A DNA stretch of 64,000 nucleotides from Sycon ciliatum (Eukaryota > Porifera > Calcarea > Leucosolenida > Sycettidae): NCBI RefSeq assembly GCF_964019385.1, contig NC_088655.1, positions 6,604,658 to 6,668,657 on the forward strand. Reading direction: 5' to 3'. The position numbers and the translations under genes were made by a program. Shown here in pieces: positions 3,370 through 59,140 of the stretch; position 1 is the stretch's first letter; each line of letters begins with the position of its first letter. The notes under the pieces are model-generated. The model searched no databases, was not told the DNA's origin, and saw only the letters and a list, made by a program, of their open reading frames with translations.

Positions 3370-4476
3370 TCACTCCAGAGTAAGGTAGTCTTCTAGAGAA
3401 GGCGGGGCCAGATCGAACGCCGTTGAAGTTTGACTTTCATAGAGGCAGGTGTGGCAATTCGTCAAAATCGCACCGACCGAATACAGCATTGCAACAGGTT
3501 GCAGTAGAACCTTCTGGTTTTTCTTGAAATCCAAGAACGCAAATTGCTGGAGGATTTTTCCAAATCCCCACTCTACGCAAATACGCACGGCACTCATCTC
3601 AGCGTTGAACCTGTTCTGCTCTTCAGTCAGATTGACCCGCCGATGTGGAGCAAGCAAGTGCGCCCTTACAGGATACGCAGGGTCTCCGTAAAGGCTAAAA
3701 ACGGGTGCTGCGTCCGCTCCGAGTGGCTGAGGGCGATCCATGAACTCCTCTAGTTGTGGCAGCAGGCCCGAGTCGCGCAGAAGGTAGGCGTCATGTCTAC
3801 GGCCTTCACAAGGGCCATGGAGGTTGGCGATAATTCCGTTGGGACACACAACAGACTGAAATTTGAGTGCGTGTACGCGCTTGTGGCCGTTAAAGAAAAG
3901 CCGCTGCCCACTGATCGGTTTGCAGATCGGTCGCACGGTGCCATCTATAAAGCCCCACACATTTTGAAGTGGTGCTTTCCTTCCAACTGCGGCGGCAAAT
4001 TCTTCAAGATGAAGAGGGGAAAGCCAAGGAAGGTCCACACGCCTAAGCAGGTCTCCCCAACGATCGTATATAAATCGACAGGTGTCATTGATGATGACGC
4101 TCAGCTCACAGCGAGAGCGCCCAAACACATCTTCCAATTGGCCTAGCCGGCATGGATAGGCCAATCGTGCTAGGACCACACATAGCCCATCGTGGCCAGT
4201 CCATTTAATCTTGTTTGGCCCACAGAACTCCTCAGGCAATCCAAGAGCTGTGGTCAGCCTTTGGTGGTGCTGCTTTTGGAAACGGAAGGTCTCTCTCCAT
4301 TTCTCGGAGGTCCACTTCTCGTCCAACCAGTCGAAACGATTGGGGAGCTGTCGAGGACGTTCCACATTGATTTGCTCCTGAAGCAGTTCCACAATTAGCT
4401 GCAGCAGCTCAAAATGAGGATCCTCGCGATCAAACTCTAAGGCGAAGAGCTCGCAGAGGACAGGTACGAGAGCCAT
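3370..4476 (-). CDS. PIF/Harbinger-type nuclease (DDE_Tnp_4), apparently intact
   Basis: This encodes the DDE nuclease of a PIF/Harbinger DNA transposon or its HARBI1-like domesticated form, which cuts and joins DNA at TWA targets. The first in-frame ATG is at 4476, giving 368 aa; the frame is open to 4530 without ATG. Numbered from that ATG, GFIDGT carries catalytic D178, GRRHDAYL carries D229, GDPAYP lies near 264, and RICVEWGFG carries E302, the standard triad order and spacing of the family. The helical N-terminal part has the usual family length, and there is no internal stop or frameshift. Harbinger elements normally carry a second gene for a Myb/SANT protein; none is visible next to this one, and I could not define its terminal inverted repeats. 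It may be a single autonomous-element gene or a domesticated copy. Confidence 0.85.
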   Translation of the reverse strand: MALVPVLCELFALEFDREDPHFELLQLIVELLQEQINVERPRQLPNRFDWLDEKWTSEKWRETFRFQKQHHQRLTTALGLPEEFCGPNKIKWTGHDGLCVVLARLAYPCRLGQLEDVFGRSRCELSVIINDTCRFIYDRWGDLLRRVDLPWLSPLHLEEFAAAVGRKAPLQNVWGFIDGTVRPICKPISGQRLFFNGHKRVHALKFQSVVCPNGIIANLHGPCEGRRHDAYLLRDSGLLPQLEEFMDRPQPLGADAAPVFSLYGDPAYPVRAHLLAPHRRVNLTEEQNRFNAEMSAVRICVEWGFGKILQQFAFLDFKKNQKVLLQPVAMLYSVGAILTNCHTCLYESQTSTAFDLAPPSLEDYLTLE

Positions 4477-4677
4477 GAGGACATGTACTTGATTGACAAA
4501 CACGTGCACAGAGGGACAACGAGAATCCAAAGTAATTAGTTACTACAAGAACATGCAAGAACCATTGACCAAAAAAACTACTTACTTTTGTCGTGGTGTC
4601 CACGTGCCACTTCGAATCTGTTTTCAAACTTTCCCGCTCACATAAATGCCGTTTCCATCGAAACGACTGCAAAGATT

Positions 4678-8500: not shown

Positions 8501-10228
8501 ACAAGAGTTCTCCATCTTTCGGTTCTTAATTAATACAATAAAGCATTCAGGTTTGTTCTGGTCTTATTGCGTGTAAAAAGGGTTTCAGAGCAGACTCGCC
8601 CTCCTCCTATTCACTCTGCAAACGTTAAACTCGAACTCATTTGATCAATGTTTTGCAACGTTTCGGCAAAATTGCCCTCATCAGGTATACAATGGTGTGC
8701 AGGTCTGAAAGGGAGCAATTATATACATGTACATGCAATTTGTGATGCTATGAAGTATGATATGCTACATCTCACCCACCGTGACGTTCCAGAATCATAA
8801 AGATATTGATACGTCAAAGAAGTATGCTACCAACAACAATTTTTCAAAGAAGACAATGCGGTGATAAATTCACGAAAAGCCCGAAGTTTTTTTCACACAG
8901 ACATCCACGCACACCCACAAACCCATGCACACACACACACATACACACACATACACACACACACACACACTCCAACAAAATGATAATGCACAGTGCACTG
9001 GTGTAAGATGTAGCAAAAATAGCAGCCAGCGTCAGATGTCACCTCAGTGCCCACATATCAAGAGTGAGTAACTCCACGCACAGTAATATTTTTCTAGGTG
9101 CGATGTTGCATATTGCGTGTGATTCAAGAATATTCTTACGCGGCTCAAGTTCGCACTACACTACCATAAGGATGTATGGAGCGGTGGGAAAAAGCGGGAA
9201 ACAACACAAGAAGGGAATATCCTTGCTGATTCTCTACTTCTAGCATAAATTCTGGCTTCGTTTTCGTTATTGCACATTCCCGTGAAACCACTGATAAAAA
9301 TGGGTGAAAAGCTTTTGGTGATATGAAACTGACAACCTTGTTGTGGTGTGTATATAAATTGTGTTCGCCTACCTCTCTTTTTAAATATATATATATATAT
9401 ATATACACACAACAACAAGGTTGTCAATTTCATAATACTAAAAGCTTTTCACCCATTTTCATCAGTAGTTACATGGGAATGAGCAAGAACGAAAACGAAG
9501 CCAGAATTTATACTATGTGTGGCAACAAGTGATAGCGCCATCACAAAGCATTTGCAGGCGCAACCTGAATGCATCCCGCAGGAACGTAACAGCAGCTTCA
9601 GTGTGATCACACCAGCCCGGAACAGCGCGCACAGATTCACACTGGAGGCGCTGTACATTCGCAGTCTGAGGCCAGAGCTGTGTCGACAAAAGAAGCACAT
9701 CAAGGTGCTATGGCTGTTCAAGCTGCAACCGGACTGACAACTTTATTACGTGTTTGTTCTGGTACTGCATTCCCCTCATGTGTTGTTTCCCGCATTTTTC
9801 CACTGCTCCATACATTCTTATGGTAGTGTAGTGTGAACTTGAGGCGCGTAAGAATATTCTTGCTGATTCTCTACCCCCAGTATAAATTCTGGCTTCGTTT
9901 TCGTTCTTGCTCATTCCCATGTAACTACTGATGAAAATGGGTGAAAAGCTTTTAGTATTATGAAATTGACAACCTTGTTGTTGTGTGTATATAAATTTTG
10001 TTCGCCTACATCTCTATTTAAATATATATATTTGCGCACGTGTGTGTTGTGGTATTTATGTGTGTTTTAGCTCCGCAGCAGCCTAAGTGCTGTAACCCCA
10101 GCGGCGCTTTTTCAGAGCTACCAACGAAGCCTTGCCGGAACAAGAATTGTTGTCATGCGTTCCACCATGTTTGTACCACACACGACATGGGGACCTATTG
10201 CAGGCATTGTCGTGTCACTGATTGCTGA
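5586..10228 (+). CDS. SWIM zinc-finger protein gene, 3' portion (7 exons modelled)
   Basis: Exons inferred from splice sites and phase: 5586-5929, 6578-6764, 6994-7197, 7399-7476, 7762-7857, 8035-8136 and 10071-10228 (stop TGA 10226-10228), about 388 codons. Exon 1 has a clear acceptor (pyrimidine tract then TGTAG) and a GTAAGT donor. It encodes a SWIM finger: CSCEDWNLKALPCKH, the CxC-xn-CxH signature. Exon 2 is a coiled coil. Exon 3 has a KRGRP basic patch. The last exon is Cys/His-rich (PCRNKNCCHAFHHVC...YCRHC), a likely zinc-binding module. After the first, phase-0 intron every junction is phase 1, so the chain is frame-consistent. SWIM fingers occur in ZSWIM proteins and MULE-derived transposases. 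The 5' exons were not found; they may lie beyond the Harbinger and LINE insertions or outside the window. No clear polyadenylation signal was seen after 10228. Confidence 0.6.
8331..8438 (+). pseudogene. Diverged duplicate of the exon at 8035-8136
   Basis: It has its own acceptor (TATTACAG) and GTATGC donor, and can be aligned along its length to exon 8035-8136 (shared GGGCAAGATG near the end and CCACRT...ATGTCTG in the middle). In the phase required by the gene model it carries a TGA, introduced by a small insertion, so it is skipped in the model. In phase 0 both copies are open. It is either a decayed duplicated exon or evidence that the frame here is different. Confidence 0.45.
8655..8690 (-). 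ncRNA. Hammerhead-like core (degenerate)
   Basis: The minus strand reads CTGATGA, a perfect 5-bp stem II (GGCAA/TTGCC with TT loop), then GAAAC and GTT. That is the catalytic core of a type I hammerhead with a minimal palindromic ACGT stem III. Stem I is poorly paired and the cleavage triplet is GTT rather than GTC, so activity is doubtful. It lies in the last intron of the SWIM gene. Confidence 0.4.
8926..8970. repeat. (CA)n microsatellite
   Basis: A run of CA/ACAT dinucleotide repeats within the last intron of the SWIM gene. Confidence 0.9.
9130..9402 (+). repeat. Penelope-like terminal repeat module, plus copy, ending in (TA)n
   Basis: The sequence from GCTGATTCTCTAC (about 9220) through the AAATGGGTGAAAAGCTTTT block to the (TA)n tract at 9385-9402 recurs in reverse at 9406-9514 and forward at 9863-10030. 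The preceding 9130-9215 block recurs in reverse at 9779-9873. Confidence 0.7.
9406..9514 (-). repeat. Inverted copy of the Penelope-like terminal repeat
   Basis: Reverse complement of the module at 9863-10012, directly upstream of the GIY-YIG tail at 9519. On its strand it contains CTGATGA, 8 nt, GAAA, a hammerhead-like spacing without a stable stem II. Inverted terminal repeats around a truncated ORF are typical of Penelope-like elements. Confidence 0.6.
9519..9737 (+). pseudogene. Penelope-like element: C-terminal half of a GIY-YIG endonuclease (remnant 1)
   Basis: A 72-codon frame with no ATG at its start, so 5'-truncated. It reads SAITKHL...C...FSVITPAR, then FTLEALYIRSLRPELCRQKK and a final LWLFK. 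This matches the C-terminal part of the GIY-YIG endonuclease that follows reverse transcriptase in Penelope-like retroelements (catalytic E in LEALYIR; P-x-LC-x-QK). It aligns with the remnant at 12350-12545. It is flanked by inverted and direct copies of one terminal repeat and sits in the last intron of the SWIM gene. Confidence 0.65.
9863..10030 (+). repeat. Penelope-like terminal repeat, downstream plus copy
   Basis: Same module as 9222-9402 and the inverted 9406-9514, ending at a short (TA)n just before the acceptor of the last SWIM-gene exon. With 9406-9514 it brackets the GIY-YIG remnant. Confidence 0.65.
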
Positions 10229-10432: not shown

Positions 10433-10752
10433 CACGTGTTAGATATCTCCTACTCCTCATCATCACTACAGTCACGTGTTAGATATCTCCTACTCCTCAT
10501 CATCACTACAGTCACGTGTTAGATATGTCCTACTCCTCATCATCACTACAGTCACGTGTTAGATATGTCCTACTCCTCATCATCACAACAGTCACGTGTT
10601 AGATATGTCCTACTCCTCATCATCACTACAGTCACGTGTTAGATATGTCCCACTCCTCATCATCACTACAGTCACGTGGTAGATATGTCCTACTCCTCAT
10701 CATCACAACAGTCACGTGTTAGATATGTCCTACTCCTCATCATCACTATAGT
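10433..10752. repeat. 40-bp minisatellite, 8 units, each with CACGTG
   Basis: Eight head-to-tail units of exactly 40 bp beginning CACGTG(T/G)TAGATAT, with only a few substitutions between copies. CACGTG is a palindromic E-box, so the array presents eight evenly spaced bHLH-type sites. There is no spacer diversity, so it is not a CRISPR array. Confidence 0.9.
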
Positions 10753-11854
10753 CACTCCCTGCTGGCGCTCCCCAATATGTTACCTAGACTCGCCCTGACC
10801 ACAGAACTATCGTCACTATTCTTGTTGTCTCTCTCTGGCTGGATCGCGTCCAGCTCAGGCAACGCTTTATAACCTAAGTACAGCCGTGCTTCGCGGGCTT
10901 TTAGTTATTCCTCTCTACTTCTCGTATTTTCCGCCAATTGCTGTTGCTGTTGCTCTACTTCTTCTTCGTCATCCTTTACCTGTATTTTAATGGTAAGACA
11001 TTACTTATTTATTTATTTCACCTTCCCGTGGCCAGAGAATAAAGGCCAATATGGATGGAGATGGGGGGGGGGGGGGGGTTATGCTGTCAATAATTTCTCC
11101 TTTATTCTCTTTTCACTCCGAACACATGATTATGAAACTCACTCTCTCTGTGCTCTGTTGTGGAGATATACGTGGTCCGGGTTGTTTTAGAGTCAGACAA
11201 TTGCATATATCTTGCATGACTTGTAAATAAGTCCTGCTGCTTTGTATATAAACCTGCGTTCTGGTGTGCTTATGAGTTAAGAACATGTATCGTTCTGAGA
11301 GAGACAGTGAGTTACAATTATACGGAGGGAGGGAAAGAGAAGGAGAAAGAGAGAGAGACAAGCAATACTTGACTGATTGGAACTAATGTTTTAGCGATTC
11401 GACGGTTGTCTTCTTCAGAATGATAATGAAGAGAGATAAAGACGGAGACATCGTTTCTTTCCTTCTTGACTGCTAGTACTGTATACCCAGTGCTGATAGT
11501 GATGGGAGGGTACAATCCACAAACTGAGGGTTGGCACTTTTGTTAAATGTCTCCTGCAATCAAGTAGAGACGGTTCAAATAGCCCTGCCATATCCATTCG
11601 GTCGGCAGCTGGATAACAATAGAGGCTATGCGATTACAATATAAATTGATATGCGTGGGCAAAGTCGCGGCACAGCGATGGAAAATCGGCTCGCGCTGTA
11701 TACTGACCATTCGTTCCACTAAACGTATATCCACTTGCGGCCAAGACGACCTTGGTAATGTACTGTTGCGCAAGTCCGGAGGCGAATTGATGTGTCTTGC
11801 TTCAGGGTCCTATTCCTTGCTGCAAATCATGACAATCATGATAATATGTTGCTA
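10753..11854. other. Non-coding stretch with a dispersed repeat fragment and a poly-G run
   Basis: 11018-11085 (CACCTTCCCGTGGCCAGAGA, then a G-run) is the reverse complement of a piece found in the S segments near 28870, 34340 and 54880. 11325-11360 is a purine-rich GA tract. No gene was recognised. Confidence 0.5.
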
Positions 11855-19533: not shown

Positions 19534-19730
19534 TGTGATCAAAATGACCCCTAAAAAGTTGTACCGCCCCAGCCACCTTAACACCAGATAGCAATGTGAG
19601 TCAGTGTCAATCTGTCGCCTAAAGTGCACCTGAAAGCAGGATTTTAGCGCTCACACACGACCCCTTATAAGTTTAGCACGGCACGCATCTAAAACAGTTT
19701 TCACACCAACAGTGAGTGCTAGCCTAACCG

Positions 19731-20302
19731 TACATGTAGATCTTTCACAACAGTACAACTCATCAACCACGTACACGTAGATCTCTCACTACAGTACAAC
19801 TCATCAACCACGTACACGTAGATCTCTCACTACAGTACAACTCATCAACCACGTACATGTAGATCTCTCACTACAGTACAACTCATCAACCACGTACACG
19901 TAGATCTCTCACTACAGTACAACTCATCAACCACGTACACGTAGATCTCTCACTACAGTACAACTCATCAACCACGTACACGTAGATCTCTCACTACAGT
20001 ACAACTCATCAACCACGTACACGTAGATCTCTCACTACAGTACAACTCATCAACCACGTACACGTAGATCTCTCACTACAGTACAACTCATCAACCACGT
20101 ACATGTAGATCTCTCACTACAGTACAACTCATCAACCACGTACATGTAGATCTCTCACTACAGTACAACTCATCAACCACGTACATGCAGATCTCTCACT
20201 ACAGTACAACTCATCAACCACGTACACGTAGATCTCTCACTACAGTACAACTCATCAACCACGTACACGTAGATCTCTCACTACAGTACAACTCATCAAC
20301 CA
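19731..20302. repeat. 41-bp minisatellite, about 14 units
   Basis: Units of the form CACGTAGATCTCTCACTACA plus GTACAACTCATCAACCACGTA, nearly identical between copies, degenerating at the right into ACGTACATGTACATG repeats. Confidence 0.9.
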
Positions 20303-20570
20303 CGCACACGTACACGTACATGTACATGTACATGCAGATAGCTACTAGTACTCACAACTTACACTGCTTTTTTCTTTCTTTTTTTTCTGGCCTCTTTTAC
20401 GGGCAAAGTAACATAATGGTTTAAAATTAATAATAAATCATACACTGGAGAAGAAATCAGAAAAATGCATGTGTAAAATAAAGAATTTCAAACCCAAAAA
20501 AACCCAAACTTCAAATCATTTTTATATAATTAAAATAAACTCAATCAATAAACTCAACAAACTCAATTCA

Positions 20571-24572: not shown

Positions 24573-25131
24573 AGTAGCCTCAGTCAGCATGATCAAAACG
24601 CGACGCAGCTCACCAGATCAAGGTGTGGGTCCTCTTCACTCCGTAGAGTGCCGAAAGACGGGCCCACGCCCCTACATGGCTACTTCCCCTTGTCTAACCC
24701 CCAAGACGATTATGATAGTAGCCGACTGGCCGAAATTTAGAAACGGAAAACGTTGCGAGCGTCTCAGAACTCCCTGACTACAATATACATGTACATGCAT
24801 GATGATGATGATGTGTTGTGTAGAGTGCTGCTGTGGATGCCACCAGCCTTTTTACGCCTTTGCGGCTTTTGGCCTTGAACTGGCTGTAGCTACTTATGGT
24901 TGATAAATATGGTGGTAAAGACACACCTGGCAATATGGCGGTAAACACACGCCTGCCTACACACGCTCTCTAGGCTGCAAAGTTCTGGCACAGAGCTCTC
25001 CTTCTCACCACCACCACTATCAGTTCGCGCCTGGCGCCTGGTCGATGCATGGCTGGCGGTATCCGGCATAGCAGGCTGGTACATCAAGTAGCGCATGGCA
25101 CATAGATGATGACACAGCAACGACATAGCTC

Positions 25132-25175
25132 GATTGCGACGTACGTTTCGTCCCCGCTGGACTCATCAGGCAATC
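25132..25175 (-). ncRNA. Type I hammerhead ribozyme, family A, intact
   Basis: Minus strand: stem I GATTGC/GCAATC (6 perfect pairs), CTGATGA, stem II GTCC/GGAC with 5-nt loop, GAAAC, palindromic stem III ACGTACGT, cleavage triplet GTC; predicted cut between 25138 and 25137. Identical over all 44 nt to 53582-53625. Confidence 0.85.
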
Positions 25176-25483
25176 TTCTTCTTGGATGTCTTCATACGGA
25201 GCTTGACTCGGGAGAATGAAGTTGAAGACACCACTGCAGCTGTACTTATGGTTGATAAATATGGTGGTAAAGACACACCTGGCAATATGGCGGTAAACAC
25301 ACGCCTGCCCACCCACGCTCTCTAGGCTGCAAAGTTCTGGCACAGAGCTCTCCTTCTCACCACCACCACCATCAGTTCGCGCCTGGCGCCTGGTCGATGC
25401 ATAGCTGGCGGTATCCGGCATAGCAGGCTGGTACATCAAGTAGCGCATGGCACATAGATGATGACACAGCAACGACATAGCTC

Positions 25484-25516
25484 GATTGCGACGTACGTTT
25501 CGTCCCCGCTGGACTC
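25484..25516 (-). ncRNA. Truncated hammerhead of the second family A unit
   Basis: Keeps the cleavage site, stem III, GAAAC and stem II, but the element ends before CTGATGA, so it cannot cleave by itself. Confidence 0.75.
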
Positions 25517-26130
25517 ACTGCCTGTAAAAAAAGGATCTCATTTCCTCTGCCCTGCATTGAGTCTACTACGATCTGGCCCGGCTGTGTACCACGTGAAGTG
25601 TACGTGGGTGAACAGACAGGCCAGTGAACAGACAGGTAGGGTCATAATGATTTTAGTACAGGCGACATCGCTCACTAGCACTGTTGCATGTGATGACACT
25701 TGAACAGCTAGTCCGCCTCTGCTCTGGCGACACAGACAGTCGGCTTCATTTCGGAGTTGGTGTGGGAGCATCAGCAGAAAGATCGGCCCGCAATGATTAT
25801 GTAGACCTACATATGGATGTACACGAGTAGCACTGTACTTTTGTAGTGTGGAGCAGGCAGTAGAATCTGATGTCATGTTGTACAGTCATGTACATAATCT
25901 ACGCGTAGATCTACAACTTTTGCCAGATCAGACAGATGAATGAAGCCACAGAGCTCTGGCCGCTGGAGCGTGCAGCGAACGACATAGGGTGTTGGACTGC
26001 TAGCTGCACCGTCCGTGCTCCAGTTCAGGATATCATTTCCTCTGCCCTGCCTTGCGTCTACTACGACCTAGCCCGGCTGTGTACCACGTGACGTGTAAGT
26101 GTGTGAACAGACAAGCCTAGCGTCTACATA

Positions 26131-27019: not shown

Positions 27020-29654
27020 CACTATACAGGCGACATCGCTCACTGACAGTCTGTTGCATGTGATGACACTTGAACAGCTAGTCCGCCTCTGGCGACACAG
27101 TCGACAGTCGCCTTCATTTCGGAGTTGGCGTGGTATCAGCCGAAAGATGGGCCCGCAATGATTTTAGACCTACTCGTAGATCTACTAGTACGTGTTGATA
27201 TACACGAGCAGCACTGTACTTTTGTAGTGTGGAGCAGGCAGTAGAATCTGATGTCATGTTGTACAGTCATGTACATAATCTACGCGTAAATCAAAAACTT
27301 TTGCCAGATCAGACAGATGAATGAAGCCACAGAGCTCTGGCCGCTGGAGCGTGCAGCGAACGTGTAGATGGGATCTTTGACTGCCGCACCGTCCGTGCAT
27401 CAGTTGAATGCGGAATCGTTTTTTTGTTGCTCGTTGCCGTCTGTGGGTGTTCTGGGCGGATGGGTGTTCTGCTTGCGGCCCTTCATATTGTTATTTTCTG
27501 GAAGTTTGAGTGACGCTCCGTCGCAATCTGGTTGCGGAAGTGAAGCGCTTTCGTTCGTCAGGTGGCGTTTAGATTTGTGGGACTACCAATCGTCCGGGTC
27601 AACGTTACCAGAATAGCAGACGCCGGACAGGAACCACCCGGCCGTTATCGGGAGCAGGTGCTTCTCCCTGGCTTGAAGTCAGGTAAGGTTCTCCCATTCA
27701 GTCCCCGACATTTCACTGAATGTCTGCGCTGAGTTCTAGCAGTACAGCAGCCCTAACCCATAACCATGGTAACGAATTATTGGAAAAGGTTTCTGCTGAT
27801 GTACAGTACTCCGTGTCGTGTGCTCACATTTGTCCGCATGCTATTGTGTTGTTCGTAGTGAAGCGCAGCAACGGCAATTCAAACGCGAAGGTATTTTCGG
27901 CTGCTGCAATATCCACTCACTCACAATCCGTGTGCTTTACAAACAGAGAAAATTAGTCGATGAATAATTTCGTCAAATTCCAAAGGAAGGACTTCTTTCA
28001 ATTTGAAACGGTGACCATTCAGCAGAAAAACTAAATTTCACATGTACATGGTTATGGCTCATGAGTGCACAATTAGTTACAGGGCTGCCACACTTGGAGG
28101 GAGAAAAATCTGACGGGGTGCCGGGTTGTCCCCCGCTTGGGGGCAGGGGGTACGGCCCCCTTGGTGAAACTATTTAGGAAAATGGCTTGCTGTTGGGGCC
28201 CCAGAACACATTTGTAACTGTGCAGCACACGTGCTACAACCATGTCAATTATGAATAAATGGCCAACTGGACTAAAAAGCGCTCAAAATATAATAATCGG
28301 TTGTCCCTCTTTGCGGAACAAAATCGGTTGCTTTGTCGGACAGGCGATCAAAAATCGGAGTAAGTGGCAGCCATAAGTTATATTCATTGCCATTTTACGA
28401 CTATTGTCTCCTCGTAGGTTATTGAAATACTTTGATCCGATCTCTTTGTCATTTTAGGGGGAAATCCTTATCTGTGTGCTCTTTGACCAACTGAGCACAT
28501 GATAATGACGTTGTTGGCTGAGGTTTGAGCTTTCTGTGATAGAGGAGAGTGGAATGGCATTGATGGTGGAATTTATTCGCATATTTGGCTTGGGGTGGAC
28601 TTTGCTGTAATCCCGCGCCTGATTTGTGGCAGCTAGTTGATGGAGTCTGGTATGCTGGCGTTGCTCTCGCCCGGAGCTTTCCAAAGAGCCTAAGATTGTG
28701 GAAATGCAGTGAAGGAGGTCAAAGTTGTAGCCTGTTGAAGGTGTAAATTGTGCAGAAAATATAAATTCTGTTTCATTCTGTGCTGGAAATCAGTACATAA
28801 AGGGATATTTATTTATTTTTCTTCGTTTTTTGTTTCCCTACCATGGCTGGCTGCCGCCCCTCCCTCCATATTGGCCTATATTCTCTGGCCACGGGAAGGT
28901 GAATAAATAACTGATGCAGCATGCATGGTGTGCGACAATACCATACCAGTAAAGAAGCTGGTCAAATAGTGAAATAGGGCTTTCAACGCAAGGATCATAA
29001 CGTGAAGCAAGTTGGTAGGATGAGTATGTATGCGAAGTGTATGGAAGGAATGCATGCAAGGAGAGAGTGCATGTTCCAATACCACGTTATGTGTGCGAAC
29101 AATTGGAAAAATGAAGAAAAAAACCGATAAGCTAGCACCACAGCATAATAATAATTACTCCGTAAAATGTACCTGACCTGTCAGTGTGTGTTCAGGATCA
29201 AACATCGTGTTATGTTTGAAAAAATGACAAAAATGAAAATCTAGCACCATACACCCTAACTACTCGATTCAGCCTCTGGGAAATCCAGATATATAATAAT
29301 TGGTTTACAAATCAATTGGCTGGAAAGCCCAGTGCCCTCCCTATGCTTTGCTTTCACCTAGGTCATCATGCTTGTAACTTCAGTTTCCTAATCATCAATT
29401 TCTATAAAACTGATAGAAACGTCTTTTCAATATGATTATCAAGTACATCTTTATGTATGTTTTTTGCGAAGACGTTTCTATTAGTTGCATAGAAAAAGAG
29501 GATTTCTTATGGTATGCAAGCTCCACTGCACAGCACAGCACTCCACAGCAAACGCGACGCAGCTCACCAGATCAAGGTGTGGGTCCTCTTCCGGTGCCGA
29601 AAGGCGGGCTCACACCCCTACATAGCTACTTCCCATTGTCTAACCCCCACCAAA

Positions 29655-30180: not shown

Positions 30181-31352
30181 GGGGGGGGGACATACGGGTT
30201 CTACACGCCTGCAGAAGAAACTGACCCAACAATTTCACTGGGTAGCCATGAAGAAAGATGTCTTAGATTGGGTTGCAAGTTGTTCTTCCTGTAGCCAGTC
30301 GAAACGTCCCGTAGGCAGAGGGTCTGGCGCTCCACCACAGTCTTCCTGGACGGGGTGTCCTTTTGAGCGAGTAGCAATGGATTTGATCCCCAATTTACCG
30401 GAGACAGCGGAAGGGAACCGCCATATTTTGGTTGTAGTGGACTATTGCTCCTGATCGGTTGCATACCGATCAGGGCAAAAACTTTGATGGCCCTTTGTTT
30501 CGCAGTGTTTGCTTTCTGCTTGGCATAGATAAGACCAGGACAACTGCGTACCATCCACAGAGTGATGGTCTGCTTGAAAGATTCAACCCAACGCTTCAGC
30601 GTAGCCTGGCACACTATGTCTGCAGGAATCATCGAGATTGGGACATCAAGTTGCCAGCCTTCTTGATGGGATACCGCTCGTTGCCGCAGACTAGTACCGG
30701 CTACAGTCCAAGCTATCTACTCTTTGGTCAAGAGTTATGCCTACCTCAAGACTTGGCATCTGGATTACCGCCAGGAGAAGCATCCGCAGTATCGTCACAG
30801 CCGGAATTTGTGAGTGCTCTCCGCCGACGCCTGGAGGACGCTCATGCACAGGTCCGGGAACACCTGGGCAACGTGCACCGTTATCAAGCGCATATCCGTG
30901 ATCGCTACGCTAAGGCCTTGACGTTTGCAGCAGGTGACGCAGTGTGGCTTCTGGTGCCAACTATACCGACGGGTTCACCCGCCAAGTTTGCTAGACTTTG
31001 GGACGGACCGTACCTAGTCGAGGAGAAGCTCTCAGCCGTCACCTACCCCATCAAACTGTCTGAGCCCACGGCACGTCGGCTGATAGTGCACGTCCACCGG
31101 CTGAAAAGTTGCCATCATCGACCGAGTCGGCTGCAGGAGGTTCACGAGCAAGATGAGTCGGACCCACCGCAGCCCATGGCATCCACCCTGACTCCGTCCT
31201 ACCAGCCTGATGCCACTGATACCGCCGCCCGAGACGAGGGGGACACCGCTCGGGTATTTGGCAGTGCTCCGCCAGTTGGCGTGATGGAAAGGCGAACTCC
31301 GCGTTCCCGCCATCCGCCCCAGCTGTTTGGGAGTCCTGTGTGGCACGAGTAA
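30181..31352 (+). pseudogene. Gypsy integrase, copy 1 (catalytic-core deletion; C-terminal half open)
   Basis: MKKDVLDWVASCSSCSQSKR is the end of the H2C2 zinc module. ERVAMDLIPNLP carries the first catalytic Asp. HTDQGKNFDG and GLLERFN carry the second Asp and the Glu. A GPYLVEEKL module follows near the C-terminus. About 45 residues expected between VVVDY and HTDQG are missing, in all three copies alike. A TGA lies at that junction; downstream, 30459-31352 is open for 297 codons. A G-run (30180-30188) upstream disturbs the frame. Confidence 0.8.
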
Positions 31353-32153: not shown

Positions 32154-34379
32154 CATGTAGTAGCCGACTGGCCGAAATTTTTAAAAAAGATGGCGAGCGG
32201 CTCAGGATGAATGAGTAAAATGTACTAGTACTTGCGTGATGATGATGTGTTGTGTAGAGTGCTGCTGTGGATGACAGCCTTTTTACGCATTTGCCTTTGA
32301 CCTTGAATTGGCTGTAGGTACTGCATGTAAAAAAAAAGTATCTCATTTCCTCTGCCCTGCCTTGCGTCTACTACGATCTAGCCCGGCTGTGTACCACGTG
32401 ACGTGTAAGTGTGTGAACAGACAAGCCTAGCGTCTACATGCACTGTGCAGGCGACATCGATCACTGTTGCATGTACGTGATGACACTTGAACAGCTAGTC
32501 CGCCTCTGGCGACACAGTCGACAGTCGGCTTTATTTCGGATTTGGCGTGGTATCAGCCGAAAGATGGGCCCGCAATGATTTTAGACCTACTCGTACTACA
32601 TGATTGTACTAGTACGTGTTGATATACACGAGTAGCACTGTACTTTTGTAGTGTGGAGCAGGCAGTAGAATCTGATGTCATGTTGTACAGTCATGTACAT
32701 AATCTACGCGTAAATCTACTACTTTTGCCAGATCAGACAGATGAATGAAGCCACAGAGCTCTGGCCGCTGGAGCGAGCAGCAAACGTGTAGATAGGATCT
32801 TTGACTGCTGCACCGTTCGTGCTTCAGTTGAATGCGGAATCATTTTTTTGTTGCTCGTTGCCGTCTGTAGGTGTTCTGGGCGGATGCGTGTTCTGCTTGC
32901 GGCCCTTCATATTGTTATTTTCTGGGAGTTTGAGTGACGCTCCGTCGCAATCTGGTTGCGGAAGTGAAGCGCTTTCGTTCGTTACCTGCCCATCGGCAGG
33001 TGGCGTTTAGATTTGTGGGACTACCAATCGTCCGGGTAAACGTTACCAGAATAGCGGACGCCGGACAGGAACCACCCGGCCGTTATCGGGAGCAGGTGCT
33101 TCTCCCTGGCTTGAAGTCAGGTAAGGTTCTCCCATTCAGTCCCCAACATTTCACTGAAGGTCTGCGCTGAGTTCTAGTAGTACAGCAGCCCTAACCCATA
33201 ACCATGGTAACGATTTACTAGAAAAGGATTCTGCTGATGTACAGTACTCCGTGTCGTGTGCTCACATTTGTCCGCATGGTATTGTATTGTTCATAGTGAA
33301 GCGCAGCCACGGCAATTCAAACGCGAAGGTATTTTCGGCTGCTGCAATATCCCCTCACTCTCAATCCTTGTGCTTTACAAGCAGAGAAAATTAGTCGATG
33401 AACAATTTCGTCAAATTCCAAAGAAAGGACTTCTTCCAATCGGAAACGGTGACCATTCAGCAGAAAAACAAAAATTTCACATGTACATGGTTATGGCTCA
33501 TGAGTGGACAATTAGTTACAGGGCTGCCACACTTGGAGGGAGAAAAATCTGACGGGGGTGCCGGGGTGTCCCCCGCTTGGGTGCAGGGGGCACGGCCCCC
33601 TTGGTGAAAATATTTAGGAAAATTGTTTGCTGTTGGGGCCCCAGAACACATTTTTAACTGTCCAGCACACGCGCTACAACCATGTCAATTATGAATAAAT
33701 GGCCAACTGGACTAAAAAGCGCTCAAGATATAATAATCGGTTGTCCCTCTTTGGGAACAAAATCGGTCGCTTTGTCGGACAGGCGATCAAAAATCGGACG
33801 ATTTCCAAAAAATCGGAGTAAGTGGCAGCCCTGAGTTATATTCTTTGCCATTTTACGACTATTGTCTCCTCGTAGGTTATTGAAATACTTTGATCGATTT
33901 CTTCGTCATTTTAGGGGAAAATCCCCATTCGTGTGCCCTTTGACCAACTGAGCACATGATAATGACGTAGGTGGCTGAAGTTTGAATCGCCTCGAAAAGA
34001 GCTTTCTGCGATAGAGGAGAGTGGAATGGCATTGATGGTGGAATTTACTCGCATATTGGGCTTGGGTGGACTTTGCTGTGATCCCGCGCCTGATTTGTGG
34101 CAGCTAGTTGATGGAGTCCAGTATGCTGACGTTGCTCTCGCCAGGAGCTTTCCAAATAGCCCAAGATTGTGGAAATGCAGTGAAGGAGGTCAAAGTTATA
34201 GCCTGTTGAAGGTGTAAATTGTGCAGAAAATTTAAATTCTGCTTCATTCTGTGCTGGAAATCAGTACATAAAGGGATATTTATTTATTTTTGCTTCGTTT
34301 TTGTTTCCCTACCATGGCTGGCTTCCGCCCCCTCCCTCCATATTGGCCTACATTCTCTGGCCACGGGAAGGTGAAATAA

Positions 34380-38874: not shown

Positions 38875-40195
38875 CATGTAGTAGCCGACTGGCCGAAATT
38901 TAAAAAAAGATGGCGAGCGGCTCAGGATGAATGAGTAAAATGTACTAGTACTTGCATGATGATGATGTGTTGTGTAGAGTGCCGCTGTGGATGACAGCAT
39001 TTTTACGCATTTGCCTTTGGCCTTGAACTGGCTGTAGCTACTGCCTGTAAAAAAAAGGATCTCATTTCCTCTGCCCTGCCTTGCGTCTACTACGATCTAG
39101 CCCGGCTGTGTACCACATGACGTGTAAGTGTGTGAACAGACAAGCCTAGCGTCTACATAATCATAATAATATAGTGCACTGTACAGGCGACATCGATCAC
39201 TGTTTCATGTGATGACACTTGAACAGCTAGTCCGCCTCTGGCGACACAGTCGACAGTCGGCTTCATTTCGGAGTTGGCGTGGTATCAGCCGAAAGATGTG
39301 CCCGCAATGATTTTAGACCTACTCGTACATCTACTAGTACGTGTTGATGTGCACGAGTAGCACTGTACTTTTGTAGTGTGGAGCAGCCAGTAGAATCTGA
39401 TGTCATGTTGTACAGTCATGTACATAATCTACGCGTAAATCTACAACTTTTGCCAGATCAGACAGATGAATGAAGCCACAGAGCTCTGGCCGCTGGAGCG
39501 TGCAGCGAACGTGTAGACAGGATCTTGGACTGCTGCACCGTCCGTGTCAGTTGAATGCGGAATCGTTTTTTTCTTGCTCGTTGCCGTCTGTAGCCGTGTA
39601 GGTGTTCTGGGCGGATGCGTGTTCTGCTTGCGGCCCTTCATTATTGTTATTTTCTGGGAGTTTGAGAGACGCTCCGTCGCAATCCGGTTGCGGAAGTTCA
39701 GCGCTTTCGTTCGTTACCTGCCAATCGGCAGGTGGCGTTTAGATTTGTGGGACTACCTATCGTCCGGGTCAACGTTACCAGAATAGCAGACGCCGGACAA
39801 GAACCATCCGGCCGCTTTCGGGAGCAGGTGCTTCTCCCTGGCTTGAAGTCAGGTAAGATTCTCCCATTCAGTCCCCAACATTTCACTGAAGGTGTGCGCG
39901 GAGTTCTAGTAGTACAGCAGCCAGCCCTAACCCGTAACTATTTATTAGAGAATGCTTCTGCTGATGTACAGTACTCCGTGTCGTGTGCTCACATTTGTCC
40001 GCATGGTATTGTATTGTTCGTAATGAAGCGCAGCAACAGCAATTCAAATGCGAAGGTATTTAGGCTGCTGCAATATCCACTCACTCTCAATCCTTGTGTT
40101 TTACAAACAGAGAAAATTAGTCGATGAATAATTTCGTCAAATTCCAAAGAAAGGACTTCTTTCAACCGGAAACGGTGACCATTCACGAGAAAAAC
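38875..40195 (+). repeat. Composite unit U3, truncated S segment
   Basis: Continues head-to-tail from U2 and follows the S order up to GTGACCATTCACGAGAAAAAC, where similarity to other copies stops near 40195. Confidence 0.8.
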
Positions 40196-40254
40196 AAAAT
40201 TGATAGGAAAGTTTTTTTGAGCTGAAATTTTAGTGAAAAAGTTGTCAGCGCTTT

Positions 40255-40345: not shown

Positions 40346-41494
40346 TTGTTCTCTTTTCAGGCAAGTCCTAATCCCGGACAGATCACTTTGCTGGGGTGCC
40401 ACCAGGTTCTAAAAAGTTGTATGACCGAAAGGAGGCGAAGAGGAAGAGGGGGTCTGGGGGACATGTCCCCCTTAAAAAATCTTATTATCGGGAGCGCGTT
40501 TTGTATTGCAAAGACGTTTGTATCAGTTTGAATAAAAAATATAGGTACTTCCGACTTCCGACTTGTCATTACAATTGTCGCTTCGCACATCGCAATGTTT
40601 GTGACTTGATTGTCTTAGTCAGGCTATCGAAATCAGTGATTTCTGTGTTCGAACATTGGTATGACCCTTCCCACGCATTTGTTACGAAAGCCGTTGTGGT
40701 CTTGGAGCTCTCTTCCGCATCAAACAAATTCTTCGCGTTCCGCAATATTTCGCCCAGAGTGCGAATCTTTTTTCTGTATTTCATATCGGCCCACATTCCC
40801 TCCCACCGCTTTAGGAGCTGCATATGCGCCTTGATCCTTGAAGGGTTGGTGGCGTTCATGCGGATGCGGCAAACTCGGCCTCTAGCCGAGTCTGACGCAA
40901 ACCGTGATTTTTTGCAAACAAAGGGATACGAATCCTGGTATATCTCTTGAATTTGGCATGCTGAAGTTTAGTTTTGCAAGAACAAAGTGTTCTCAAATTC
41001 CTGAAATGCGCTACCTGTGGCGCATGTTGCTGCGAAGGTAGCAGGCCTGAAAACAGCAACATTATCAGCGCAGTGCTTGTCAATGAAAGAAGGTGCTGAA
41101 CTGCTTACCCTATCTCTCTGCTGCTGCTACTGCTCATTATAATCTAGTGTAAAAATGCTAGTATGACGTCATCGCCTGACACCTGCAGGCATCCATTGCT
41201 TGAAAACAAAGTTTCATGACCTGAATTTGCACACGCTTTTTGTTCAGCGTTTTGTTGAGTACAGAAGGGTACACCTCAAATCCTGCTGAAGACGTCGACC
41301 CCAGCCGCAATTGCAGCAAAGCAGGAGGCCACGAATTGAAGCTTAAGCTGTGTTCACAACTGGTGCGTGGACGCGGTACGCTTGCGGTTCATGCGTGCCC
41401 AGATGCGCACTAAGCCTTTCACAAAAAACAGCAATCCGAGTCGTATTTAGCGTGTTTAGCGACACCTTCGAGTACCAATTTTTGGACCCCGCCA
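40346..41494. other. No recognised gene
   Basis: A 96-codon minus frame at 40569-40859 (MNATNPSRIKAHMQLLKRWE...) has protein-like composition but no family I recognise; the 184-codon plus frame over the same stretch is probably its shadow. The GGGGGTCTGGGGGACATGTC piece near 40450 is low-complexity element debris. Confidence 0.4.
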
Positions 41495-42125
41495 GTCAAA
41501 GTGACTGCTGGCATGTACGCTGGTACCCCGCCAGTCAGAGTGACTGCTGGCATGAACGCTGGTACCCCACCAGTCAGAGTGACTGCTGGCACGTACGCTG
41601 GTACCCCGCCAGTCAGAGCGACTGGCATGTATACTGGTACCCCGCCAGTCAGAGTAACTGCTGACATGTACGCTGGTACCTCGCCAGTCAGAGTGACTGC
41701 TGGCATGTACGCTGGTTCCTCGCAAGACAGAGTGACTGCTGGCATGTACGCTGGTACCCCGCCAGTCAGAGTGACTGGTGGCATGTACGCTGGTACCCCG
41801 CCAGTCAGAGTGACTGCTGGCATGAACGCTGGTACCCCACCAGTCAGAGTGACTGCTGGCACGTACGCTGGTACCCCGCCAGTCAGAGCGACTGGCATGT
41901 ATGCTGGTACCCCGCCAGTCAGAGTAACTGCTGACATGTACGCTGGTACCTCGCCAGTCAGAGTGACTGCTGGCATGTACGCTGGTACCCCGCCAGTCAG
42001 AGTGACTGCTGGCATGTACGCTGGTACCCCGCCAGTCAGAGTGACTGCTGGCATGTACGCTGATACCCCGCCAGTCAGAGTGACTGCTGGCATGTACGCT
42101 GGCACCCCACCAGTCAGAGTGACTG
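41495..42125. repeat. 39-bp minisatellite (about 16 units) with a ~270-bp higher-order repeat
   Basis: Units of GTCAGAGTGACTGCTGGCAT plus GTACGCTGGTACCCCGCCA. One 36-bp variant and other marked variants recur 270 bp apart (e.g. CATGAACGCT at 41551 and 41821). Because 39 is a multiple of three, long frames are open on both strands (209 codons plus; 248 and 232 minus), encoding 13-residue repeats such as MYAGTPPVRVTAG. No start context or flanking exon supports translation. Confidence 0.9.
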
Positions 42126-52271: not shown

Positions 52272-53335
52272 CTGCCTGTAAAAAAAGGATCTCATTTCCC
52301 CTGCACTGCCTTGCATGCTTCTACTACGCGATCTAGCCCGGCTGTGTACCACGTGACGTGTACGTGGGTGAACAAACAGGGCTATTGTAGGGTCTACATA
52401 ATCATTTTAGTACAGGCGACATCGCTCACTAGCACTGTTGCATGTGATGACACTAGAACAGCTAGTCCGCCTCTGCTCTGGCGACACAGACTGTCGGCTT
52501 CATTTCGGAGTTGGTGTGGGAGCATCAGCAGAAAGATCGGCCCGCAATGATTATGTAGACCTACATATGGATGTACACCGTACTACACGAGTAGCACTGT
52601 ACTTTTGTAGTGTGGAGCAGACAGTAGAATCTGATGTCATGTTGTACAGTCATGTACATAATCTACGCGTAAATCTACAACTTTTGCCAGATCAGACAGA
52701 TGAATGAAGCCACAGAGCTCTGGCCGCTGGAGCGTGCAGCGAACGTGTAGAGAGGATCTTGGACTGCTGCACCATTCGCGCTTCAGTTGAATGCGGAATC
52801 TGTTTTGTTCTTGCTCGTTGCCGTCTGTGGGTGTTCTGGGCGGATGCGTGTTCTGCTTGCGGCCCTTCATATTGTTATTTTCTGGGAGTTTGAGTGACGC
52901 TCCGTCGCAATCTGGTTGCGGAAGTGAAGCGCTTTCGTTCGTTATCTGCCCATCGGCATGTGTCGTTCAGATTTGTGGGACTACCAATCGTTCGGGTCAA
53001 AGTTACCAGAATAGCGGACGCCGGACAGGAACCACCCAGCCGTTATCGGGAGCAGGTACTTCTCCCTGGCTTGAAGTCAGGTAAGCATCTCCCATTCAGT
53101 CCCCAAGTTTCACTGAATGTCTGCGCTGAGTTCGAGTTGCACAGCAGCCCTAACCCGTAACGATTTATTGGAAAAGGATTCTGCTGATGTACAGTACTCC
53201 GTGTCGTGTGCTCACATTTGTCCGCATGGTATTGTATTGTTCGTAGTGAAGCGCAGCAACGGCAATTCAAACGCGAAGGTATTTTCGGCTGCTGCAATAT
53301 CCACTCACTCTCAATCCGTGTGCTTTACAAGCAGA

Positions 53336-53349
53336 GAAAATTAGTCGAT
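53336..53349. repeat. Left target-site duplication of the retrozyme insertion
   Basis: GAAAATTAGTCGAT, repeated exactly at 53943-53956; present once in U1, U2 and U3. Confidence 0.85.
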
Positions 53350-53942
53350 AAATATGGTGGTAAAGACACACCTGGCAATATGGCGGTAAACACACGCCTG
53401 CCCACACACGCTCTCTAGGCTGCAAAGTTCTGGCACAGAGCTCTCCTTCTCACCACTACCACCATCAGTTCGCGCCTGGCGCCTGGTCGATGCATGGCTG
53501 GCGGTATCCGGCATAGCACTGCAGGCTGGTACATCAAGTAGCGCATGGCACATAGATGATGACACAGCAACGACATAGCTCGATTGCGACGTACGTTTCG
53601 TCCCCGCTGGACTCATCAGGCAATCTTCTTCTTGGATGTCTTTGACTCGGGAGAATGAAATTCAAGGCACCACTGCAGCTGTACTTATGGTTGATAAATA
53701 TGGTGGTAAAGACACACCTGGCAATATGGCGGTAAACATACCGCCAGCCATGCATCGACCAGGCGCCAGGCGCGAACTGATGGTGGTGGTGGTGAGAAGG
53801 AGAGCTCTGTGCCAGAACTTTGCAGCCTAGAGAGCGTGTGTGGGCAGGCGTGTGTTTACCGCCATATTGCCAGGTGTGTCTTTACCACCATATTTATCAA
53901 CCATAAGTACAGCTGCAGTGGTGTCTTGAATTTCATTCTCCC
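53350..53942 (-). mobile_element. Retrozyme-like element (family A) with 14-bp TSD and an inverted end
   Basis: 53350-53739 is a bit more than one family A unit in the same orientation as 24892-25516. 53740-53942 is ~203 bp of the same unit in inverted orientation (fold-back). Flanked by the 14-bp GAAAATTAGTCGAT duplication. Empty sites exist in the paralogous units near 27945, 33385 and 40110. An inverted end plus a long TSD resembles twin priming by a LINE-type reverse transcriptase. Confidence 0.85.
53582..53625 (-). ncRNA. Type I hammerhead ribozyme, family A, second intact copy
   Basis: Identical over 44 nt to 25132-25175: all core bases, 6-bp stem I, 4-bp stem II, ACGTACGT stem III and GTC cleavage triplet. 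Confidence 0.85.
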
Positions 53943-55661
53943 GAAAATTAGTCGATGAATAATTTCGTCAAATTCCAAAGAAAGGACTTCTTCCAATCGG
54001 AAACGGTGACCATTCAGCAGAAAAAACAAAATTTCACATGTACATGGTTGTGGCTCATGAGTGCACAATTAGTTACAGGGCTGCCACACTTGGAGGGAGA
54101 AAAATATGACGGGGGTGCTGGGGTGTCCCCCGCGGGGGTGCAGGAGGCAGGGCCCCCTTGGTGAAAATGTTAAGGAAAATGGCTTGCTGTTGGGGCCCCA
54201 GAACTCATTTTTAACTGTCCAGGACACGCACTACAACCATGTCAATTATGAATTAATGGCCAACTGGACTAAAAAGCGCTCAAAATATAATAATCGGTTG
54301 TCCCTCTTTGTGAACAAAATCGGTCGCTTTGTCGGACAGGCGATCAAAAATCGGAGTAAGTGGCAGCCCTGAGTTATATTCATTGCCATTTTTTCGACTA
54401 TTGTCTCCTCGTAGGTTATGGAAATACTTTGATCCGATCTCTTTGTCATTTTAGGGGAAAATGCCTATCTGTGTGCTCTTTGACCGACTGAGCACATGAT
54501 AATGACGTTGTTGGCTGAGGTTTGAATCGCCTCGAAAAGAGCTTTCTGTGATAGAGGAGAGTGGAATGGCATTGATGGTGGATGTTTCTCGCATATTGGG
54601 CTTGGGGTGGACTTTGCTGTAATCCCGCACCTGATTCGTGGCAGCTAGTTGATGGAGTCTGGTATCCTGGCGTTTCTCTCGCCAGGAGCTTTCCAAAGAG
54701 CCCAAGATTGTGGAAATGCATTGAAGGAGGTCAAAGTTATAGCCTGCTGAAGGTGTAAATTGTGCAGAAAATTTAAATTCTGCTGCATTCTGTGCTGGAA
54801 ATCAGTACATAAAGGGATATTTATTTATTTTTGCTTCGTTTTTGTTTCCCTACCATGGCTGGCTACCGCCCCCTCCCTCCATATTGGCCTATATTCTCAG
54901 GCCACGGGAAGGTGAAATAAAAATAAATAAAAAATAACTGATGCAGCATGCCTGGTGTGCAACAATACCATACCAGTAAAGAAGCTGGTTAAAAAGTGAA
55001 ATAGGGCTTTCAACGCAAGGATCATAACGTGAAGCAAGTTGGTAGGATGAGTATGTATGCGAAGTGTATGGAAGGAATGCATGCAAGGAGAGAGTGCATG
55101 TTCCAATACCACGTTATGTGTGCGAACAATTGGACAAGCTAGCACCACAGCATAATAATAATTACTCCGTAAAATGTACCTGACCTGTCAGTGTGTCAGT
55201 GATCAAACCCCGTGTTATGTATGAAAAAAATGAAAATCTAGCACCATACACCCTAACTACTCGATTCAGCCTCTGGGAAATCCAGATAATTAATAATTGG
55301 TTTACAAATCAATTGGCTGGAAATCCCAGTGCCCTCGGTATGCTTTGCTTTCACGTAGGTCATCATGCTTCTTACTTCAGTTTCCTAATCTTCAATTTCT
55401 ATAAAACTGATAGAAACGTCTTTTCAATATGATTATCAAGTACATCTTTATGTATGTTTTTTGCAAAGACGTTTCTATTAGTTGCATAGAAATAGAGGAT
55501 TTCTTATGGTATGCAAGCTCCACTGCACAACACAGCACTCCACAGCAAACGCGACGCAGCTCACCAGATAAAGGTGTGGGTCCTCTTCCGGTGCCGAAAG
55601 GCGGGCTCACGCCCCTACATAGCTACTTCCCATTGTCTAACCCCCACCAAAAAACCCATTG

Positions 55662-58647: not shown

Positions 58648-59140
58648 TTACGGAAGGTATGCAAAGGAAGAACTTGAGCGGACCTCCGCTGGGAGGGCAT
58701 TCCAGCGGTCAGAGCCAAGGAAAGTGACAGAAAATAAACCATAGCGACGTTTGGCTGTCGGAAGAGCAAGGGAAGAGGACACTTGAGAGCGGGTGCGAGA
58801 ACTAGTGCAGGTAGAATTAGAGCGGAGACAGAAACAGTTAGCAACAAAGACACTAGCCAGATCATGAAGCGCACGGTACGTTAGAACGTACAGCTTGAAT
58901 TGGTACCTGACAGACAAGGGAATGATATGGTAGCGGGCAAGAACAAGGGAGACATCAGATAGGCGGGGCATGCAAAATACAATACGCAGCGCTCTATTAC
59001 TAAGTCGGACAACACGGTCATGGAGGGAGGCAGAAAGGCAGTGAGCAAAGGAATTAGAGCCATACTCAAGTATGGACTGAATGGAACAGATGTAGAAAGC
59101 CCTCTTAGCATCGATCGTTAAAATAATGGTCTCGGACCTT
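58648..59140 (-). pseudogene. Frameshifted C-terminal tail of LINE ORF2
   Basis: After a frameshift near 59110-59150 the sequence continues TIDAKRAFYICSIQSILEYG, then RYHIIPLSVRYQFKLYVLTY and GSDRWNALPAEVR, the conserved CR1/Jockey C-terminal pattern (LP+R..FKL..L.Y.ALH ... WN.LP). It ends with a stop at 58648. Confidence 0.75.

Follow-up and report, generated by a model that had tools for sequence, protein, structure and literature searches.

A hammerhead retrozyme of the sponge Sycon ciliatum inserts as head-to-head arms with two fixed 3' ends and is probably copied by the Penelope-like machinery of the same genome

How does a short repeat that carries a ribozyme and no recognisable gene come to be scattered over a sponge genome? 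This question is raised by a locus in a 64,000-nucleotide stretch of Sycon ciliatum DNA (contig NC_088655.1, positions 6,604,658 to 6,668,657; hereafter the window), in which a retrozyme built of 352-bp tandem units had been predicted from the letters alone. The insertion concerned (insertion 1) covers positions 24891 to 25517 on the minus strand and is a single arm of 1.8 units. Units were numbered over 352 nt on the ribozyme strand, with u1 counted from the predicted cut; on this scale the left end of insertion 1 lies at u247, within the site called A below, and its right end at u325. The unit length stood, since a 275-nt repeat occurs twice (24891-25165 and 25243-25517, 99% alike) at a spacing of 352 bp. 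The whole type I hammerhead foreseen at 25132-25175 on the minus strand was recognised by the Rfam covariance model RF00163 (Hammerhead_1), which scored it at 35.4 bits (gathering score, 34) with an E of 3.7e-5 in the window search, and sequence logic places its putative cut exactly where the original prediction had it, after GTC, between 25138 and 25137 on the minus strand. The claim that the ribozyme itself is repeated at 352 bp held only in part: the 275-nt repeat agrees with it, whereas the second copy stops at 25517 (u325), a position within the 5' part of the motif. This truncated hammerhead (25484-25517, minus strand; u325-352 and then u1-6 on the unit map) lacks its 5' part, and the Rfam scan of the window gave no match there. 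With one whole and one truncated ribozyme, a transcript of insertion 1 is thus predicted to be cut only once, so that this copy alone cannot release a 352-nt monomer. No recognisable target-site duplication was found at its flanks. The segment u239-u277, which separates the two fixed 3' ends of other insertions, corresponds here to 25213-25251 on the minus strand. Directly beside insertion 1, a 91-nt repeat occurs twice (25532-25622 and 26027-26117; spacing 495 bp, 90% alike).

The unit had also been described as non-coding, and its substitutions are in keeping with this, as they show no clear sign of coding constraint. An open run of 164 codons (25020-25514, minus, the ribozyme strand) goes 1.4 times round the 352-nt unit, a length rare in shuffled sequences (1 of 2000). 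A coding role for this run was rejected: synonymous and non-synonymous substitutions stand at 104:274, near the 117:299 expected, and 12 changes create stop codons. The expected number of such changes was 18.4, with a value as low in 64 of 1000 simulations; the open run may be under weak coding constraint, and the unit is taken as non-coding. We also set aside the idea that the element is a Penelope-like element (PLE) proper, as 352 bp leave no room for a gene for a reverse transcriptase and a GIY-YIG endonuclease. A highly self-paired RNA is expected of metazoan retrozymes; folded as a circle, the unit has 64% of its bases paired at an energy no better than that of 100 shuffles (z +1.2), and the unit map shows no LTR-like arrangement.

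Further copies had been expected elsewhere in the genome, and they are numerous. In the one assembly searched (538 Mb, 313 contigs), the 32-nt ribozyme core was found 1210 times with no more than 2 mismatches (618 on one strand, 592 on the other), against 0 for the reversed pattern of the core in the same search, which excludes chance. These copies are dispersed: the 100 ribozyme places listed first, all of them exact matches on contig C1, fall into 68 clusters. The structural sample was drawn from the best 40 of 1366 candidates scored with a 1.8-unit query, and consists of 39 clusters outside the window plus the two window copies; because the clusters are the best matches to that query, long copies are over-represented. 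Forty-two insertions were mapped from the sampled loci, one of which (L045) holds two. Side pieces beside the mapped insertions in L036, L041, L056, L058 and L065 were left out of the counts, and L041 was excluded from the arm comparisons (shared-allele and fixed-difference tests). Among the ribozymes of the sampled loci, found at up to 6 substitutions, the core is kept in 140 of 141 and is exact in 130.

The main structural fact, missed by the original prediction, is that most of the mapped insertions consist of two arms set head to head, with outer ends at two fixed 3' sites, A and B, which is the signature described for PLEs. The single-arm dimer, the form taken by insertion 1, is not the commonest: 31 of the 42 mapped insertions have two arms. 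In all 31 the arms converge (left arm minus, right arm plus), and both outer ends are therefore RNA 3' ends. In 28 of the 31, one outer end falls within A (u227-247, with u237-239 the commonest positions) and its partner, about 38 nt further along the unit, within B (u267-283); the exceptions are L039 (194/275), L056 (241/257) and L065 (202/243). An independent and equal choice of A and B would have made about half of the copies A/A or B/B, and none was observed. The arm that starts from A is the longer one in 11 of 28 copies. Target-site duplications were found around 27 of the 31 two-arm copies and 3 of the 11 single-arm copies (30/42), their length being 12-14 bp in 25 of the 30; those of the two-arm copies are exact and at least 11 bp long in 24 of 27, and three of the 30 (L034, L040 and L060) have one mismatch. 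A mismatched control, in which the left flank of one insertion was combined with the right flank of another, gave duplications in 0 of 300. The absence of a duplication in 8 of the 11 single-arm copies was counted against a PLE reading. Targets are AT-rich (70% in the duplications versus 53% in the background). The inner junctions are variable; 10 of 31 share at least 2 bp, a slight excess of micro-homology over the roughly 16% due to chance, and 6 of 31 contain a gap. Two single arms from B (L041 and L052) stop within about 1 nt of A (u239-240) after at least 2 turns, as though copying had come to an end at the position of the second site.

Orientation was also read from the ribozyme places themselves, a check free of the long-query bias. 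Among the 100 places listed first, neighbours on opposite strands and no more than 3 kb apart were '-+' in 10 cases and '+-' in 0. Three single-ribozyme places near the head of this list were examined as well. One (L103) is a two-arm copy with ends at u240 and u278 and a 14-bp duplication, and another (L105) is a single arm with its end at u274 and a 12-bp duplication. The third (L104) is a diverged single arm (86%) ending at about A, and its 11-bp repeat was read by eye, the script having picked the element's own sequence.

The window contains a second insertion with an equal-scoring ribozyme (insertion 2, 53350-53942). Its left arm (53350-53749, minus strand) starts at site A (u233), and a whole type I hammerhead lies at 53582-53625 on the minus strand (RF00163, 35.4 bits), so that both window copies score above the gathering threshold. 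The right, inverted arm (53738-53942, plus strand) ends at site B (u280), and 12 nt at the inner junction are common to both arms. The insertion is flanked by the 14-bp target-site duplication GAAAATTAGTCGAT on the left (53336-53349, plus strand) and its 14-bp counterpart on the right (53943-53956, plus strand). Three empty-site paralogues carry this 14-bp target once and uninterrupted in related repeats, at 27948-27961, 33386-33399 and 40112-40125, all on the plus strand. The left flank of insertion 2 is 90-93% identical to all three over about 650 bp, and the right flank matches two of them at 91% over about 660 bp and the remaining one at 95% over 91 bp. These uninterrupted targets show that the two-arm insertion entered whole, duplicating its target. 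The surrounding dispersed repeat has four copies in the window, about 90-93% alike (27318-28588, 32742-34060, 39467-40201 and 52701-54600), the fourth being the one split by insertion 2.

We then compared the two arms of each insertion. Non-majority alleles fixed in the longer arm were present in the other arm in 33 of 33 cases, at a mean frequency elsewhere of 0.08. When both arms had at least 2 units and each arm was unanimous, fixed differences between them amounted to 1 in 2889 positions, compared with 22.3 expected for arms of different insertions. From the shared family-rare alleles and this single fixed difference, it follows that one RNA unit probably templated both arms. Arms reach 4,914 nt (14 units); at L033, a one-base deletion at u269 occurs in 14/14 and 4/4 covered units of the two arms and is absent from the other sampled loci, and some arms (in L052, L043 and L059) show no difference between their units. 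The median distance was 0.6% for units that run in one arm direction, 0.8% for opposite arms within a locus and 1.8% for different loci, every gap column being counted, so that indels weigh heavily. Speaking against one template, the arm-arm distance exceeds the typical between-locus distance in L031, L046, L060, L065 and W53, and gene conversion within loci could imitate part of the one-template signal. The overall pattern is probably the trace to be expected of a single RNA unit copied in repeated turns from the two target strands.

Looking at the autonomous elements of the same genome, PLEs are abundant and young. The search for GIY-YIG domains gave at least 148 matches (best 150 of 944 candidates scored), and 17 of the 148 listed fall within 902-aa open frames, some of which are repeated in tandem every 2,935 bp or so. 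One 902-aa protein scored 24 bits with RVT_1 (cut-off 29.6) and 22.5 bits with GIY-YIG (cut-off 22.6), both below the Pfam cut-offs. Among the nearest relatives of this protein are a 99% match and Sycon proteins, and a PDB sequence search with the PLE protein gave no match. Neighbours within 8 kb among the 148 listed matches were '-+' in 18 cases, '+-' in 1, '++' in 9 and '--' in 8. From the '-+' neighbours we chose 11 two-arm copies of one family (P1), both outer ends being readable in 9; the pairs L087/L088 and L101/L102 are thus outside the end count. In all 9 resolved copies, one end is at A' (CATCTGTAATTC) and the other at B' (CCGCTTCTAAT, 34-40 nt further), with duplications of 12-13 bp in 7. 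Two P1 copies, L085/L086 and L091/L092, sit in microsatellites, and the 11-bp repeat of the former was read by eye. Twelve further ends from three PLE families show the order minimal hammerhead (read by eye), hairpin and A' site; downstream of A' come the frame start ATGAA.CTGCAG and then B', where the copy reaches that far. The hammerhead motif of these PLEs (CTGATGA...GAAAC), also read by eye, resembles the minimal type as presented in the available portions of PMC7229834 and PMC7761336, and an Rfam scan of 14 PLE loci at E up to 5 recognised no hammerhead. Most two-arm insertions of the retrozyme and all resolved P1 copies have one A-type and one B-type end, which ties the retrozyme to a PLE-type priming on two strands. 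Similarity of the retrozyme to three PLE modules gave p values of 0.95, 0.07 and 0.46 (best 0.07). The order TGCAG - A - CTGCAG - B is common to the retrozyme and the PLEs and arose in 123 of 40000 shuffles, although this order was defined after it had been seen; as a mark of partnership it is suggestive at most. At 8588-8727 the window contains what is left of a diverged PLE end region, with 75-82% identity to the PLEs examined.

The A/B rule is not general to the hammerhead repeats of this genome. A second family with a 226-bp unit (L010-L012, L022-L027; 34.6-34.9 bits in the four loci scanned with Rfam, above the cut-off) has a single fixed end, 11-16 nt after the predicted cut; 18 of 21 loci have an end at u6-16, and its one two-arm locus (L027) has both ends at the same fixed site. 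Other repeats of the window are three minisatellites (10433-10755, 19729-20312 and 41486-42125) with units of about 40, 41 and 39 bp in 8 to 17 copies. Its transposon genes include a DDE_Tnp_4 transposase (3370-4539, minus strand), an integrase C-terminal piece (30438-31352, plus strand) and a LINE-type endonuclease and reverse transcriptase (59105-61615, minus strand).

The retrozyme reading agrees with the type I hammerhead, the head-to-tail 352-bp units, the dispersed copies and the target-site duplications, and we consider it likely that this is a non-autonomous, non-coding retrozyme of the metazoan type, copied in trans by the PLE machinery of the same genome. Cleavage, circularity of the RNA and mobilisation in trans are what we infer from the insertions. 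The hammerhead would cut multimeric transcripts into 352-nt units, which would probably circularise and be bound by a PLE reverse transcriptase/endonuclease. AT-rich target DNA would be cut about 12-14 bp apart on its two strands, as the duplications suggest, and each cut strand would prime its own cDNA on a shared RNA unit, the first entering at site A and the second at site B, some 38 nt away, or the reverse; the ends themselves are observed, and the enzyme is a presumed one. Each cDNA would run up the unit and might circle it many times, before the two cDNA ends were joined at a variable point. The outcome would be the structure seen: two arms facing each other, an A end on one and a B end on the other, flanked by a duplicated target. 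Counted against this reading are the low module similarity (p 0.07 at best), the end exceptions L039, L056 and L065, the single fixed end of the 226-bp family, the fold of the unit and the PLE hammerheads that Rfam does not recognise. As to the template, the balance tips slightly in favour of a single 352-nt circle copied simultaneously from both cut target strands by the PLE protein, perhaps as a dimer, through two fixed entry sites 38 nt apart that would each be used once per insertion. Rolling round this circle would give the multimeric arms, and the same two-site, one-template rule would explain the inverted, one-tailed structure of the PLEs.

Other routes to this structure were weighed against the same data. 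It is improbable that a LINE moves the retrozyme and that its inversions stem from twin priming, where the second target strand serves as a primer at an internal position of the RNA. LINE-like endonuclease and reverse transcriptase genes are present, including the one in the window, and both the 12-14 bp duplications and the short micro-homology at inner junctions are compatible with LINEs; twin priming, however, fixes the 3' end alone and lets the second start fall at random inside the RNA, whereas both starts are fixed here in 28 of 31 copies and the PLEs of the genome obey the same rule. In a satellite-like amplification, local duplication together with unequal exchange and gene conversion would have built the arrays and inverted arms. 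The presence of arrays with as many as 14 units that differ little among themselves would suit it, and gene conversion could make arms share alleles, but the dispersal of the copies, their flanking duplications, their fixed outer ends and the three empty sites of insertion 2 make it very improbable. Inverted repeats are also a known class of assembly artefact, and foldback chimeras could create inverted arms. Here the duplications flank the whole two-arm unit, the outer ends are fixed while the inner junctions vary, and interrupted and uninterrupted targets occur side by side, so that we give an artefact hardly any credence.

The remaining alternative retains the PLE and dispenses with the circle, the insertions being made from linear multimeric transcripts of a tandem locus; we grant it an appreciable but minor chance. 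In vitro PLE work used a linear RNA template and did not need ribozyme cleavage, as reported in the available part of PMC11167929. Tandem PLE arrays are present in the genome, and a uniform source array would also give shared alleles. Less easily accommodated are the private u269 deletion, carried by every covered unit of the L033 arms in a family whose arms reach 14 units, and the arms without any unit-unit difference, both of which argue for copying from a single circular unit.

A partner of this kind had been suggested before. Cervera and de la Pena (2020; PMC7229834) held PLEs to be strong candidates for moving metazoan retrozymes, and a 2024 review (PMC11722881) names LINEs or PLEs as possible helpers, as far as the available portions of both go; the main text of PMC7229834 does not contain the words 'inverted', 'sponge' or 'Porifera'. 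Our search of titles and abstracts, which did not extend to subscription papers or most preprints, revealed no PLE footprint in retrozymes, and a literature search of the same reach gave no paper with both 'Sycon ciliatum' and 'hammerhead'. What is new here is the insertion structure, PLE mobilisation of retrozymes having been a proposal in the available portions of this literature. For the PLEs themselves, the available parts of two papers are relevant. An Anolis PLE protein cuts and extends both strands in vitro, its starts lying at two neighbouring internal RNA sites; this accounts for the 30-40 bp PLE tail (PMC11167929). In rotifer PLEs the pLTRs are inverted, one end bears a 31-bp tail and the duplications measure 8-10 bp; self-priming on antisense RNA had earlier been suggested as the origin of the inverted PLE structure (PMC3846280). 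The A/B rule and the one-template result bear on how PLEs form this inverted structure. With 1210 ribozyme copies and many young PLEs sharing one insertion footprint in one genome, the PLE link is directly testable.

Plant LTR retrozymes are among the known systems that resemble the element. As described in the available parts of PMC7229834 and PMC7761336, they are likewise non-coding, carry hammerheads and are modelled as spreading through circular RNA, and they differ by a type III hammerhead, LTRs, a primer-binding site and a polypurine tract, 4-bp duplications and circles of 600-800 nt; according to the former source they are moved by Gypsy elements. The metazoan non-LTR retrozymes of coral, mussel and axolotl are another such system. 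In the available portions of PMC7229834, they share with the Sycon element non-coding tandem units of a few hundred bp (about 170-400 bp, a range that includes 352 bp), a type I hammerhead, duplications longer than 4 bp, a length exceeded by those found here, and the presence of PLEs in the same genome. Their GC content is below 50%, compared with 52% for the Sycon unit, a descriptive rather than a mechanistic feature, and head-to-head arms with two fixed ends, as seen in Sycon, are not described in those portions. PLEs, finally, differ from the retrozyme in that the latter encodes no protein and has a unit of only 352 bp, and its hammerhead is a canonical type I for Rfam, whereas those of the Sycon PLEs go unrecognised. 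With the PLEs of PMC11167929 and PMC3846280, as far as their available text describes them, the retrozyme nevertheless shares inverted arms, a tail of about 30-40 nt confined to one of the two ends (28 of the 31 two-arm copies), a target-site duplication, AT-rich targets and a hammerhead.
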